From: Labilithrix sp.
GTDB lineage: Bacteria > Myxococcota_A > Polyangia > Polyangiales > Polyangiaceae
Reading direction: 5' to 3'
DNA: 64,000 nt
Assembly: GCA_019637155.1 (NCBI GenBank)
Contig: JAHBWE010000014.1
Coordinates: 62,001-126,000, forward strand
A program made the translations under genes and the position numbers. Positions within the stretch are counted from its first letter, which is position 1; each line of letters opens with the position of its first letter. Below are positions 39,766 through 45,304 of this stretch, in pieces. The notes below the pieces were generated by a model, which was not told where the DNA came from, made no database searches, and saw only the letters and a program-made list of their open reading frames with translations.

Positions 39766-40185
39766 ATGACGCGCCCTCTCCTCGTTGCTCTCACTGCCCT
39801 GGCCGCCACGACGACCACGAGCCTCGCGGGGGCGACGGAGTCGCCGGCGCCCATCGCCGTCGGCGAAGTCGCAGCCGACGCGGCGAGCGCGGACGTCGCG
39901 TCGCTCCGGGACACCGCCGAAGGCGAGATCCGGCAGATCGACACCTCGAAGCTCAAGCGCCGCTACGTGGTCTCCTTCTCCGTCGCGCGCGCCGCCGCCG
40001 GCGACGCCGTCGCGTGCACCGCGAACGCGATCCTGCGCGACGCGAAGACCGGCGCGATGATCGCGATCATCGAGGCCGGCGCCCACGCCGCGGGCACCAC
40101 CTCCGACGAGGCCGCGAAGCGCGTCGCCCACGCCGCCGTGCGCTCCGCGATGCGCCGCATCCCCACCGCCCTCGGCGCGAAGTAG
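39766..40185 (+). CDS. Small secreted protein of unknown function
   Basis: 139 residues from ATG 39766; a GTG at 39760 would add two residues. A signal peptide (RPLLVALTALAATTTTSLAGA) is followed by a compact domain with two cysteine-poor segments: KLKRRYVVSFSVARAAAG and ILRDAKTGAMIAIIEAGAHAAG, ending in AAVRSAMRRIPTALGAK. The latter looks like a conserved helix. No family was recognised. It is convergent with the TAXI gene. Confidence 0.7.
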   Translation: MTRPLLVALTALAATTTTSLAGATESPAPIAVGEVAADAASADVASLRDTAEGEIRQIDTSKLKRRYVVSFSVARAAAGDAVACTANAILRDAKTGAMIAIIEAGAHAAGTTSDEAAKRVAHAAVRSAMRRIPTALGAK

Positions 40186-40224: not shown

Positions 40225-41571
40225 CTACGCGCGCGCCCGCAGCTGGCGGAGCAGGTCGTCCTCGATCGCGCGGAGGCCCTCCTGCAGCACGCGGAACGCC
40301 TCGTTCGCCTCGAGGCGCTCCGAGGCGAGCTCGCCGAGGGCCTTGGCCTCCGTCTCGTTCAACGCGCGCAGGAGCTCCTCGAGCTCCGTCGTCGTCGTCG
40401 CCGCGCGCGCGCTCTTCGTGAGCTCGGCGAGGTTCGCGAAGTACAGCTCGATGCGCCCCTTCTGCGAGCGCTTCCGCCACGCGTGGAGCGCGGTGACGCC
40501 CGACCAGCCGATGCCCGCGACCGCGAGGAGGAAGCTGAAATACTCCGCGTTCTGCTCGAAGACCGAGGGCTCGTTGCGCCGGAGGTAGCGATCGGCGCCG
40601 GGGTGGACCGGGTACGGCGCCTCCGCCGGATCGAACTTCTCGCTGAGCTGCGCGAGGAGCTTCTCCTTCTGCGCGAGCCGCAGCTTGTTCGCGAAGAGGC
40701 TCTGCGTGAGGTCGTAGACGAGGTCGTCGTCGAGGTCCTCGCGCACGACGAGGAGCGCGCGCACGCTGACGGTGCCGACCGGCTCGACCGGTTTGTCGCC
40801 GTAGGTCCGCTCCGGGACGACGGCGGAGAGGAGGTACGGCGCGTCGACGTGGATGCCGTCGATCGGCCCGCCGACCTTGTCCGGCGGACCGAGCGAGAGG
40901 AGGGAGAGCTCCGGCCGCGCGAGCATGCGCTCCACCACCGGCGCGCGCAGGCCGGCGACGACGAACACCGCGTCGATCTCGCCCTTCTCGAGCTGCGTCG
41001 CGGCGTCGAGCGGCGGCATGTTCAGCGCGGTGATGCGTGTCTTGTCGATCTTGAAATGTTCGAGCACCTGCCACGCGATCTGCTCGGTGCCGCTCGCGGC
41101 GGGGCCGATCGCGACGCGCTTGTTCGCGAGGTCGCCCGGCGTCGCGATGTTCGCGCCCGCGCGGACGACGACCTGGAGCGTCTCCGGGTAGAGCGGCGCG
41201 ATGAGGCGCACGTGCTCCCCTTCGAGCTCCTGCCCCGTGCTGTTGTTCGACACCAGCGCGAGCTCGACCTCCTTCTTCTCGAGCATGTCGATCGAGAACG
41301 GAGAGCCCTTGCTCTCGATCACCGTCAGCCGGACGTTCGGGTGCTCGCGTTGCACGTTCCTCGCCAGCTCGACGCCGAGCGGCAGGAACGTCCCGCCCTT
41401 CTGGCCCGTCGCGATGCGGAGCTCCGTCGTTCGTCCGCGGCGGATGAAGAGGAAGACCGCCACGAGGGCGACCGCGAGCAGGACCCCGATCGCGACGACG
41501 CGACCGCGCCTCCGCGGCGGGGGCGCGGCCGGGACCGGCGGCGGCGGCACGGTGGGGACCTTGGCCGGCAT
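40225..41571 (-). CDS. TAXI-family TRAP-type solute-binding protein with membrane anchors
   Basis: 448 residues. A Pro-rich leader and one helix (VVAIGVLLAVALVAVFLFI) precede the binding domain, which opens with LRIATGQKGGTFLPLGVELA and contains VSNNSTG and KRVAIGPAASGTEQIA, the TAXI pattern for carboxylate ligands. After about residue 350 comes a second helix (FSFLLAVAGIGWSGVTALHAW) and a charged coiled-coil tail. The tail is not usual for simple binding proteins and suggests a sensor-like or docking role. The ATG overlaps the POTRA gene stop (TGATG). No TRAP membrane subunit is present in the window. Confidence 0.85.
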   Translation of the reverse strand: MPAKVPTVPPPPVPAAPPPRRRGRVVAIGVLLAVALVAVFLFIRRGRTTELRIATGQKGGTFLPLGVELARNVQREHPNVRLTVIESKGSPFSIDMLEKKEVELALVSNNSTGQELEGEHVRLIAPLYPETLQVVVRAGANIATPGDLANKRVAIGPAASGTEQIAWQVLEHFKIDKTRITALNMPPLDAATQLEKGEIDAVFVVAGLRAPVVERMLARPELSLLSLGPPDKVGGPIDGIHVDAPYLLSAVVPERTYGDKPVEPVGTVSVRALLVVREDLDDDLVYDLTQSLFANKLRLAQKEKLLAQLSEKFDPAEAPYPVHPGADRYLRRNEPSVFEQNAEYFSFLLAVAGIGWSGVTALHAWRKRSQKGRIELYFANLAELTKSARAATTTTELEELLRALNETEAKALGELASERLEANEAFRVLQEGLRAIEDDLLRQLRARA

Positions 41572-42677
41572 CAGCTCCCTCCTTCGATCTCGCGCAGCTC
41601 GATCTCGATCTCGATCGTCTTCGCCTTCTGATCCGTCTTCGTGAGCGGGTTCACCTCGACCTTCTTCCCCCGCTTCGCGAAGAGCTCGCGGATGCGCGCG
41701 ATGTCCGCCTGCAACATGCTCCGGTCGAAGACCGCCTTCGTCCGCGTCTTCATCGCCGCGCGGAGCTCACCCTCGAGCTTGTCCGCCGGCGCGCCGCTGA
41801 AGCTCACCTTGCCGACGCTGAACCGCTCGCCCTCTTGCACCGGCCACGTCACCGTGACCGCGCCGTCCGCCGCCACGTCGCGCTGGAGCTCCTCCATCCG
41901 CACGTTCACGTAGCCGCGATCGTAGTAGGCGTTCACGATCCGCTGCGCCGCCTGCGCCAGCGCGGTGGGATTCCACGCGCTCCCCGGCGTGAGCCCGCTC
42001 AGCGCGCGGAGCTCCGCCTCGGAGAGCTTCGTCGTCCCCGGGAACGAGATCTTCGCGAGCTTCCACGGCGTGCCCTCCACGACCTTGAAGCGCACGCGCA
42101 CGAAGCCCGGCTTCGTCGGCTCCGTCACGAAGGTGACCTTCGCCGCGCCGTACCCGTGGAGGTGGTACTCGCTCTCGATCTTGTCGGCCGCGGCGGCGAG
42201 GACGAAGCGGTCAATCGGCTTGTCGTACTCGACCGGGCTCGTCATCTGCGCGGCGGACGCGCCGTCGTAGACGACCTCCTCGACGCGCGGGCGCTCGGTG
42301 AGGACCACGTGCACGAGCGCGCCGTTGCCCCGCTTCTCCGCGCCGATCGCGACGTCGTCGAAGAGCCTCGTCGCGACGAGCGCCTCGATCGAGGCGCGCA
42401 CCTCCTCCGTCGCGAGCGGCGCGCCGATCCGGAACGTGAGCGCGCGCTCGACCTCGGCGCGGTTCGCGTCGCTCGCGCCGTACGTGCACACGCGCTCGAT
42501 CGCGAGCGACAGCGGCGCGGCGGGCTCGAGGTCCTCGGCGGCGAGCTTCGGGGCGGCGGAGGGGCAGCTCGTCACGACGGTAGTGCCTTCACGCGTCTTT
42601 GGCGATGCTGGCGATTTGGGCGGATTGGACGAGCAGGCGACGAGCAGCGCCGCGCCGGCGACGAGCGCGCGCTTCAC
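41571..42677 (-). CDS. POTRA-domain lipoprotein without beta-barrel
   Basis: 368 residues from GTG 42677, which overlaps the SurA-like stop (GTGA). The signal ends in LLVACSS, so it is lipidated. The mature part shows at least three POTRA repeats: [30 protein letters not shown], then [26 protein letters not shown] with [11 protein letters not shown], then [20 protein letters not shown] with [14 protein letters not shown]. In BamA, TamA and two-partner secretion proteins POTRA domains precede a barrel; here the protein ends after them. It could recruit client proteins in the periplasm with the chaperone encoded upstream. Confidence 0.82.
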
Positions 42678-43252
42678 CACCGCACCTCGATGAACGACTC
42701 GCCGCGGAGCTCCTGGAGCAGCTTCTTCTTCTCCTCCGTGAGCAGCGCCTCCACCGCCGCCTTCTTCTCCTCCTCCGTCCCCGTCACCGGCGCCTGCACG
42801 CGCGGACGCACGACGAAGCTCGTCCACTTGGCCTCCATCAGCTGCCGCCGCAGCTCCGCGCGGTAGGTCTCCTCGCTGAACCCCTGCGCGCGGACCGACG
42901 CGAAGAGCGTGGCCCGATCCGTCTTCGCGCTCCTGGCGATCTCGTCGATCGCGGCCTCGATCTCGTGCTTCTCGACCCCGATGTGGACGCGCGCGCAGTC
43001 CTTCTCGACGAGCTTGTCGTCGATCATCTCGTCGAGGACCTGGCGCGCCAGCTCGAGGTGGCGCTTCGGATTGCTCATGTTCCGCTTCGCGAGGAGGGCG
43101 ACGTGCGGCCGCGTCCGCGCGACGACGTCGGAGCGGTAGATCGTGTACGCGTCGATCTGCGCGACGATGCGATCGAGGAGCACCGGCGTCTCGGCCTGCG
43201 CGAGCGACGGTGCGAGGAGGACGGCGGCGAGGACGGCGATGCGGCGGAGCAC
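42674..43252 (-). CDS. SurA N-terminal-type periplasmic chaperone
   Basis: 192 residues from GTG 43252. A signal peptide ([14 protein letters not shown]) is followed by the SurA_N region: [38 protein letters not shown] and [19 protein letters not shown]. The parvulin isomerase domains of SurA are absent, so only the client-binding module remains. It ends with a short helical tail. First gene of a three-gene operon with the POTRA lipoprotein and TAXI protein, and divergent from fumC. Confidence 0.83.
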
Positions 43253-43312: not shown

Positions 43313-44698
43313 ATGACGGCGACGCGGACGGAGCACGACACGATGGGGGAGATCGAGGTGCCGGCGGATCGGTACTGGGGGGCGCAGACCGAGCGCTCGC
43401 GGCGCAACTTCGCGATCGGAGGGCAACGGTTCGCCCCCGCCGTCGTCCACGCGTTCGGGATCGTCAAGAAGGCGGCCGCGCTCGTGAACGAGGACCTCGG
43501 CAAGCTCGACGCCGAGCGCGCCGGCGCGATCGCGCGCGCCGCCGACGAGGTCATCTCCGGCGCGCTCGACGATCACTTCCCGCTCGTCGTCTGGCAGACC
43601 GGGAGCGGGACGCAGACGAACATGAACGCGAACGAGGTCATCGCGCACCGCGCCGCGATGCTGCTCGACGACGCGGCGACCAAGATCGAGATCCACCCGA
43701 ACGACCACGTGAACATGTCGCAGTCGTCGAACGACGCGTTCCCCACCGTGATGCACGTCGCGGTCGCGACGCGGATCCGGACGCGCCTCCTCCCCGCGCT
43801 CGACGGCCTCCGCGCCGCGATCGAGGAGCGCGCCGCCCGCTTCGCCGGCGTCGTGAAGATCGGGCGCACGCACATGATGGACGCGACGCCGCTCACGGTG
43901 GGGCAGGAGATGAGCGGATGGGCGGCGCAGCTCGCGGCGGCGGAGCAGGCGATCGGCCTCGCGCTGAACGGCCTCTACGACCTCGCGCTCGGCGGCACCG
44001 CGGTCGGCACCGGCCTCAACGCGCACCCCGACTTCGCGCCGCGCGTCGCGGCGAAGATCGCCGAGCTCACGAGCGCGCCCTACCGCAGCGCGCCGAACAA
44101 GTTCGCGGCGCTCGCCGGCCACGACGCGCTCGTCGCGACGAGCTCCGCGCTGCGCCTCCTCGCCACCGCCGGCATGAAGCTCGGCAACGACGTGCGCCTC
44201 CTCGCGAGCGGTCCGCGCGCCGGCCTCGCCGAGCTCCTCCTCCCCGAGAACGAGCCGGGCAGCTCGATCATGCCGGGGAAGGTGAACCCGACCCAGGCCG
44301 AGGCGCTCACGATGGTGTGCGCGCAGGTCATGGGCAACGACGTCACGGTCGGCATCGCCGGCGCGAGCGGGCACCTCCAGCTCAACGTGTTCAAGCCCGT
44401 CATCGTCCACAACGTCCTCGAGAGCGTGGAGCTCCTCGCCGACGCGTGCGAGAGCTTCCGCGATCACTGCGTCGTGGGGATGGAGCCCAACCTCCCCGCG
44501 ATCCGGCGCCACCTCGAGAGCTCGCTCATGCTCGTGACCGCGCTCGCCCCCCTCGTCGGCTACGCCGCCGCCGCGAAGATCGCGAAGAAGGCGCACGCCG
44601 ACGGCACCACCCTGAAGGAGGCCGCCCTCTCCCTCGGCCTCGTCACCGCAGACCAGTTCGACGACCTCGTTCGCCCCGAGACGATGACGCATCCGTAG
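43313..44698 (+). CDS. fumC: Fumarate hydratase class II
   Basis: 461 residues. The signature [16 protein letters not shown] is present, with [16 protein letters not shown] and [18 protein letters not shown] also typical. It hydrates fumarate to L-malate in the citric acid cycle without an iron-sulphur cluster. ATG 43313 is chosen with GGAACGGAAGG upstream. It stands alone; the aconitase gene 660 bases downstream on the same strand acts in the same cycle. Confidence 0.97.
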
Positions 44699-44720: not shown

Positions 44721-44748
44721 ATGCGCATACCATGCGCATACCATGCGC
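44721..44748 (+). promoter_or_regulatory. Tandem palindromic repeat at ccdA start (candidate autoregulation operator)
   Basis: ATGCGCATACC occurs twice in perfect tandem (44721-44731, 44732-44742) and a third partial copy ATGCGC includes the ccdA start codon (44743). Each full copy contains ATGCGCAT, a perfect 8-base palindrome. The period is 11 bases. Toxin-antitoxin operons are usually repressed by their own complex, so this is a good operator candidate. Confidence 0.6.
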
Positions 44749-44982
44749 CTCACCGGAGCCAAGCGTTCGGTCAACCTCTCGCTGAACGCAGCCCTCGTCG
44801 CGCGTGCACGACGAATCACCGACAACCTCTCCGCCGAGGTCGAGACCCTGCTCGCCGATTTCGTGGCCAAGAACGAGGCGTTGCACAACGCCGAGGGGGA
44901 GCAGCTACGCCGCACGGCGACCGCATGGGACGACTTCACCGCACGGCACGGCTCCCTCGCCGACGAGTTCTCTCCGCTCTGA
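44743..44982 (+). CDS. ccdA: Antitoxin of the CcdA family
   Basis: 79 residues. The N-terminus (AKRSVNLSLNAALVARARRI) is the ribbon-helix-helix DNA-binding part of CcdA, with the family's NLSAEVETLLADFV helix next. The C-terminal region (ALHNAEGEQLRRTATAWDDFTARHG) contains the Trp-Asp-Phe stretch that wraps the toxin. It neutralises CcdB and represses its own operon. The toxin start lies five bases after its stop. Confidence 0.9.
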   Translation: MRLTGAKRSVNLSLNAALVARARRITDNLSAEVETLLADFVAKNEALHNAEGEQLRRTATAWDDFTARHGSLADEFSPL

Positions 44983-44986
44983 TCTG

Positions 44987-45304
44987 ATGGCGCAGTTCGA
45001 CGTCCACCGTAACCCAGGCAAGCAAGCGGCCGTTCCGTACGTCGTCGTCGTGCAGTCGAAGATCTTCGACACCTATCGGCGCCGCGTCGTCGTGCCGCTC
45101 GTCAAACGAGCCGTCTTCGGCGCGCCGCTGAGCGCTCGGCTCAACCCCGCGTTTACAGTTCGAAAGGATGTCGTCGTGTTGCATCCTCTCGACATCGTCT
45201 CGGTCCCTCGGGAAGCTCTCGGGAAGCCCATCTCTTCGCTCGAGCAGCATGGTTCCAGCATTCTCGATGCGTTGGATACGCTGCTCACTCGCGCCTATGG
45301 TTAG
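44987..45304 (+). CDS. ccdB: Gyrase-poisoning toxin of the CcdB family
   Basis: 105 residues. The N-terminus AQFDVHRNPG and following VPYVVVVQSKIFD are the CcdB signature; FTVRKDVVVLHPLDIVSVP and the end SSILDALDTLLTRAYG are also conserved. The C-terminal Trp-Gly-Ile tail of plasmid CcdB that poisons gyrase is replaced by Ala-Tyr-Gly, so potency against gyrase may differ. Chromosomal ccdAB pairs are frequently remnants of mobile elements, but no other mobile genes are nearby. Downstream lies aconitase, 57 bases away. Confidence 0.9.
   Translation: MAQFDVHRNPGKQAAVPYVVVVQSKIFDTYRRRVVVPLVKRAVFGAPLSARLNPAFTVRKDVVVLHPLDIVSVPREALGKPISSLEQHGSSILDALDTLLTRAYG

Follow-up and report, generated by a model that had tools for sequence, protein, structure and literature searches.

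An overlapping gene pair for a short SurA and a barrel-less POTRA lipoprotein in Labilithrix sp. and its relatives

In Escherichia coli, SurA is reported to add the N-terminal strand of its core to the edge of POTRA1 of BamA, in an interface that forms without the remainder of BAM (PMC11970506), and the core alone is described as largely complementing a surA deletion (PMC7195389). Client density has been located in the SurA Core (PMC11366764). Alphaproteobacterial SurAs are described as having one PPIase domain or none (PMC2635482); a SurA without PPIase domains is therefore not new by itself. At the other end of the pathway, BepA is reported to degrade outer-membrane proteins that have stalled on BAM (PMC13067283). 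In the open-access literature searched we found no description of a gene pair that joins a short SurA to a POTRA protein, the arrangement reported here.

Gene layout and protein architecture

The window analysed, a stretch of 64,000 nucleotides of Labilithrix sp. DNA (assembly GCA_019637155.1, contig JAHBWE010000014.1, positions 62,001 to 126,000), carries on its minus strand a run of three genes that extends from 43252 to 40225 and encodes a SurA-like, a POTRA and a TAXI protein (Table 1). The original prediction, that these are three shortened envelope proteins whose genes have overlapping starts, was confirmed by domain scans and by the GTGA and TGATG overlaps. The run is bracketed by a fumarase gene and a 139-aa gene, with a transaldolase gene beyond the latter. 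The 139-aa protein gave no match in a Pfam scan; its gene adjoins transaldolase at four other loci (L065, L066, L144 and L145), with or without the SurA–POTRA pair. Between the fumarase and aconitase genes lies a CcdA/CcdB toxin–antitoxin pair (44743-45304, plus strand; PF07362, E 6e-13; PF01845, E 3e-28).

Table 1. Features of the three-gene run and its flanks, in window coordinates
Feature	Coordinates	Strand	Basis
139-aa gene, conserved left flank	39766..40185	+	synteny
Membrane-anchored orphan TAXI gene, 448 aa	40225..41571	-	domain scan
Second hydrophobic helix of TAXI, residues 344-362, then charged tail	40486..40542	-	in 7/7 relatives compared
TGATG overlap, POTRA stop / TAXI start	41569..41573	-	sequence
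POTRA lipoprotein gene, 368 aa, barrel-less	41571..42677	-	Pfam; model
POTRA4, residues 287-363	41589..41819	-	model
POTRA3, residues 206-285	41823..42062	-	model, Pfam
POTRA2, residues 131-203	42069..42287	-	model
POTRA1, residues 59-130	42288..42503	-	
Lipobox LVAC, Cys15	42633..42644	-	alignment, motif check
GTGA overlap, SurA-like stop / POTRA start	42674..42677	-	sequence
SurA-core gene, 192 aa: signal peptide, SurA N-domain, C-terminal helix and strand	42674..43252	-	
C-terminal helix and strand of SurA core, residues 160-192	42677..42775	-	matches full-length SurA C-terminus, same genome
N-terminal beta strand of SurA core, residues 26-33	43154..43177	-	alignment to SurA; DSSP strand E29-33
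Fumarase gene, conserved right flank	43313..44698	+	synteny

The SurA-like protein had been predicted to lack isomerase domains, and this was borne out, as a Pfam scan identified SurA_N as its sole domain (PF09312, E 7e-14, above the cut-off) and found no rotamase/parvulin PPIase domain. Its AlphaFold model (mean pLDDT 90.8) aligns with residues 25-428 of E. coli SurA (Z 16.2, rmsd 2.7, 164 aligned residues), so that the core is represented by both its N-terminal and its C-terminal part, and the isomerase domains are gone. In the alignment, residues 26-33 are the counterpart of the strand through which E. coli SurA docks on POTRA1 of BamA. The C-terminal segment ends as do full-length SurAs from other genomes of the order. 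By its predicted structure and alignment, the protein is a SurA minus the isomerase domain, with the C-terminal segment retained and a complete core. Short SurA genes are also found unpaired: one genome (G020) carries two, at L077:1644-2219 and at L076:8597-9205, the latter with no start codon. Neither has an adjoining POTRA gene, and both were left out of the pair count. The L077 copy clusters with full-length SurA in a tree that, like the POTRA tree below, is poorly resolved inside families; this clustering suggests that PPIase loss occurred more than once.

The second protein fits the prediction of a lipidated POTRA protein devoid of a barrel. The domain scan gave POTRA matches alone (PF07244, E 3e-26) and found no Omp85/16-stranded barrel domain; the model (mean pLDDT 86.6) holds four POTRA domains, its top structural matches are BamA (best E 4e-24), and the chain terminates five residues past POTRA4, with neither POTRA5 nor barrel. 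The putative lipid-anchor Cys is aligned in 18/18 family members, and a simple motif check gave lipobox-like matches in 17 of the 18, with the L125 match lying upstream of the aligned Cys. In a tree of 40 sequences, into which locus L129 was entered twice, all 18 full-length BamAs group in a single clade (support 0.98), from which the POTRA lipoproteins are excluded. Against the TamL model the protein scored 31 bits, where the cut-off is 400.

The same genome also encodes a full-length SurA with the PPIase domain PF00639 (L083), a full-length BamA (L084) and an Omp85 lipoprotein (L085). The last of these (L085:3430-5397) has POTRA domains, a barrel (PF01103) and a lipobox-like start, and a large gene directly follows it; the arrangement resembles a lipidated TamA next to a TamB-like gene.

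The third protein is a clear member of the TAXI family (PF16868, E 8e-50; TIGR02122, E 9e-55, 186 bits against a cut-off of 84). The extra helix ascribed to it is present as a second hydrophobic stretch at residue 344, and the part described as a coiled coil corresponds to a charged C-terminal tail of ∼85 residues. Each of the seven TAXI proteins compared shows two hydrophobic stretches, the first of them N-terminal, and a C-terminal tail; the ‘extra helix’ is therefore a trait of that TAXI group. Positively charged residues following the second helix suggest that the tail may be cytoplasmic, with a receptor-like role. The claim that the protein lacks TRAP subunits also held: none was seen near its gene, and the sole DctM of the genome is encoded next to a DctQ gene on a different contig, while the window TAXI is the sole PF16868 protein of the genome. 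More distant two-helix TAXIs, 27-30% identical to that of the window, occur in L078 and L081, where each is followed by a gene pair that starts alike in both genomes; these genes perhaps form a separate conserved operon.

Distribution of the pair and of its neighbours

SurA-core and POTRA genes were found together at 22 verified loci, in 20 genomes belonging to 14 genera and three families (f1, f5 and f8) of one order. The searches were confined to the host phylum and drew on overlapping samples (58 genomes in relatives-based searches, 144 from the order, 140 from the phylum, 33 from a second family and 88 from the family), at most 292 distinct genomes (G000-G291) in all. The window order, SurA before POTRA, is seen in G000 and G001 (two loci each, one of those in G001 cut by a contig end), G007, G009, G023, G028, G033, G049, G087, G105, G127, G129, G143, G144, G145, G151 and G288; three genomes (G053, G073 and G085) have a different gene order. 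Among the 19 window-order loci, 15 show an overlap of one or four bases between the two genes. The four exceptions are L070 (19 bases, depending on the choice of start), L125 (ambiguous start), L126 (frame-shifted) and L123 (a 785-base gap). In L123 (G144) an opposite-strand gene with a RibD_C domain, at 2228-2812, lies between SurA and POTRA, the sole such gap among the same-order pairs.

An all-against-all comparison of neighbours in 22 stretches, two of them with solo copies (L077 and L122), showed that the flanks mostly differ among loci, so that the pair itself is the retained unit. Shared neighbours amounted to synteny between near relatives (the window, L065 and L066; L070 and L126; L127 and L128), an M48 gene shared with L123 and one weak match. 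The linkage of SurA to POTRA is far beyond chance. Tree distances of the partners also correlate (r 0.84, 16 pairs; none of 2000 permutations was as high, the maximum being 0.43), although this agreement is weak evidence because linked genes share their history.

The spread of the pair is patchy: 14 of the 88 sampled family genomes have it at E<=1e-84, and in the phylum sample (140 genomes, E<=1e-82) it was seen in G000, G023 and G087 only, at a strict threshold, below which divergent members are missed. Of the three SurA partners in the other family, two retain a PPIase domain. A POTRA copy in G140 stands solo, with no adjoining SurA, and was left out of the pair count; second-POTRA or short-frame matches in G097, G135 and G111 had no SurA in the fetched stretch. 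A match in G191 was rejected as a pair member, being a full-length BamA. An apparent SurA–POTRA fusion in G087 was likewise rejected: a single ORF (L126:4134-5858) matches both profiles, with the POTRA signal peptide and lipobox in a different frame, and frameshifts in the assembly are the likely cause.

Conservation beyond this genome, which the original prediction made decisive for all three genes, was found for the SurA–POTRA pair and not for the TAXI gene, which adjoins the pair in this genome only. Two congeners, Labilithrix sp. ACE_MYX8 (L145) and G007, have fumarase, the pair, a 140-aa gene and transaldolase, with no TAXI gene, whereas in ‘Myxococcales bacterium 68-20’ (L144) transaldolase is present with the small gene and fumarase, the last two 62 bases apart, and both pair and TAXI are missing. 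These arrangements make the pair a presence/absence module at this site and the TAXI gene an adjacent addition. The TAXI profile had no match in 29 stretches that contain either the pair, a single unpaired copy or a match that had been checked and found not to be a pair (352,733 bases, some overlapping). Relatives at E<=1e-60 lie beside unrelated genes (G042, G052 and G034), and a pattern scan for named TAXI relatives found none. TAXI is a recent neighbour that stands outside the conserved unit. The data support the SurA–POTRA pair as a conserved, usually overlapping unit of parts for handling outer-membrane proteins.

A gene for an M48 protease lies directly beside or between the pair members at six of the 22 loci (in G023, G087 and G144, and in G053, G073 and G085); none was present in the fetched DNA at the other 16, the locus in the window included. 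PF01435 was found in all four M48 proteins scanned (L070, L075, L129 and L227), and the HExxH motif was seen in the alignment of L070, L129 and L075. BepA was the top match in an NCBIfam scan of three out of three, at 45-63 bits against a cut-off of 570. All five starts that were read (L070, L075, L123, L129 and L227) are lipobox-like. The association of SurA, BamA-type POTRA domains and a BepA-like protease is the strongest hint of function that the loci offer.

Possible roles of the pair

Since the pair retains the client-binding core of SurA and a POTRA arm, and includes no insertase, we propose that it forms a lipid-anchored arm for capture and triage. The SurA core would be exported and bind unfolded outer-membrane proteins, while the lipoprotein would present its array of POTRA1-4, most likely at the inner surface of the outer membrane. 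Docking of the core on POTRA1 would take place through strand addition, in the manner of SurA on BamA, and would gather loaded chaperone on the membrane-tethered arm. An array without POTRA5 and barrel could not insert clients; these would be handed to BAM or, in clades that keep one, to the lipidated BepA-like M48 protease, making the arm a holding and triage station. We infer the docking, the side of the membrane, the type of client and the hand-over. That the pair is an accessory module anchored in the outer membrane, capturing and triaging unfolded outer-membrane proteins beside BAM and separately from normal SurA and BamA, is a reading to which we give an even chance. We are more tentative about its fullest form, in which a second SurA and a POTRA arm, in some clades with a dedicated BepA-like protease, and with an altered interface, would make up a barrel-less, membrane-tethered satellite of BAM that triages outer-membrane proteins off the insertase.

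The residues at the presumed docking site do not simply favour this proposal. In full-length proteins the R64(BamA)–D41(SurA) bridge is well kept, with Arg in 14 of 18 BamAs and an acidic residue in 14/14 SurAs. The short SurAs have the acid in 16 of 19, while the lipoproteins have Arg at the bridge position in 5/19 rows (L129 being counted twice; two of three in the second family), and in the window pair a Glu of the lipoprotein lies opposite the Asp. The bridge thus failed as support for docking, since it is not kept in the lipoproteins, and it counts against it. This may reflect an altered interface, or a short SurA that still visits normal BamA. The latter would suit a less probable alternative, in which the lipoprotein joins normal BAM as an accessory subunit and brings in the short SurA for some clients only, so that the pair serves delivery and neither holding nor triage. 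This calls on the same parts, docking on BamA is possible given the acid in the short SurAs (16/19) and the Arg in normal BamAs (14/18), and the genome carries normal BamA and normal SurA too. In E. coli it is POTRA5 that makes contact with BamD and the barrel, and the lipoprotein is missing this domain; the protease association, moreover, fits triage at least equally well.

The patchy distribution, and the presence of two copies in G000 and in G001, could instead reflect specialised assembly of one surface system, such as a protein for secretion, motility or outer-membrane exchange, as opposed to general handling of outer-membrane proteins. We consider this unlikely, as no client-like neighbour recurs in the all-against-all comparison of the 22 stretches, where the recurrent groups are near-relative synteny and M48. 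Decay has a still weaker claim: each protein does lack parts of its full-length relative, and the unpaired short SurA of G020 clusters with full-length SurA, as functionless duplicates of surA and bamA might. Nevertheless, lipobox, SurA C-terminal segment and reading frames have been retained over large divergence, GC3 of the SurA-core and POTRA genes (0.97 and 0.95) is like that of neighbouring genes, and the lipoproteins stand outside the well-supported clade of full-length BamAs; we regard decay as very improbable. The least credible reading is the three-part complex of the original prediction. TAXI shares the strand with the pair and overlaps it at TGATG in this genome, but its absence beside the pair in both congeners and from the 29 stretches, together with the unrelated operons of its relatives, tells against it as a third partner, and its two predicted membrane helices would place the tail in the cytoplasm if the N-terminus is inside.

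Our preferred reading, capture and triage on a lipid-anchored arm, would if true amount to a natural separation of the docking and chaperone steps from insertion in the assembly of outer-membrane proteins. How SurA hands over its clients and how failed clients are extracted are both questions in the BAM field, and the pair makes both testable with two or three soluble proteins.

Comparison with known systems

The composition of the pair suggests an undescribed extra station for outer-membrane-protein handling, and each of its parts has a known counterpart from which it departs. Like the PPIase-less SurAs engineered in E. coli or found in Alphaproteobacteria, the short SurA consists of an N-domain and a C-terminal segment without isomerase; here, however, it comes in addition to a full-length SurA and is tied to a POTRA lipoprotein gene of its own. 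The lipoprotein shares with BamA POTRA1-4 its four POTRA domains, alignable along the whole length, and differs from BamA in lacking POTRA5 and barrel, in its putative N-terminal lipid anchor and in its place outside the clade of full-length BamAs. TamL and other Omp85 lipoproteins, as presented in PMC4104836, are likewise lipid-anchored POTRA proteins but have a barrel, which the pair lipoprotein does not. As that survey describes the superfamily, the barrel defines it, and a barrel-less family could not appear there; Omp85 surveys defined in this way would overlook the POTRA lipoprotein family.

The neighbour protease resembles BepA and the M48 lipoproteins LoiP and YcaL in its M48 domain and lipobox-like start, whereas it falls far below the BepA model cut-off (best 63 against 570 bits) and is absent from the window locus. 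The window TAXI, finally, can be set beside the elongated TAXI of TAXI-GltS, which also has extra parts and no TRAP subunits (PMC12344293). In the system as that source describes it, the protein is a lipoprotein encoded beside gltS and carries its extra domains at the N-terminus, while the window TAXI has two predicted membrane helices and a C-terminal tail.
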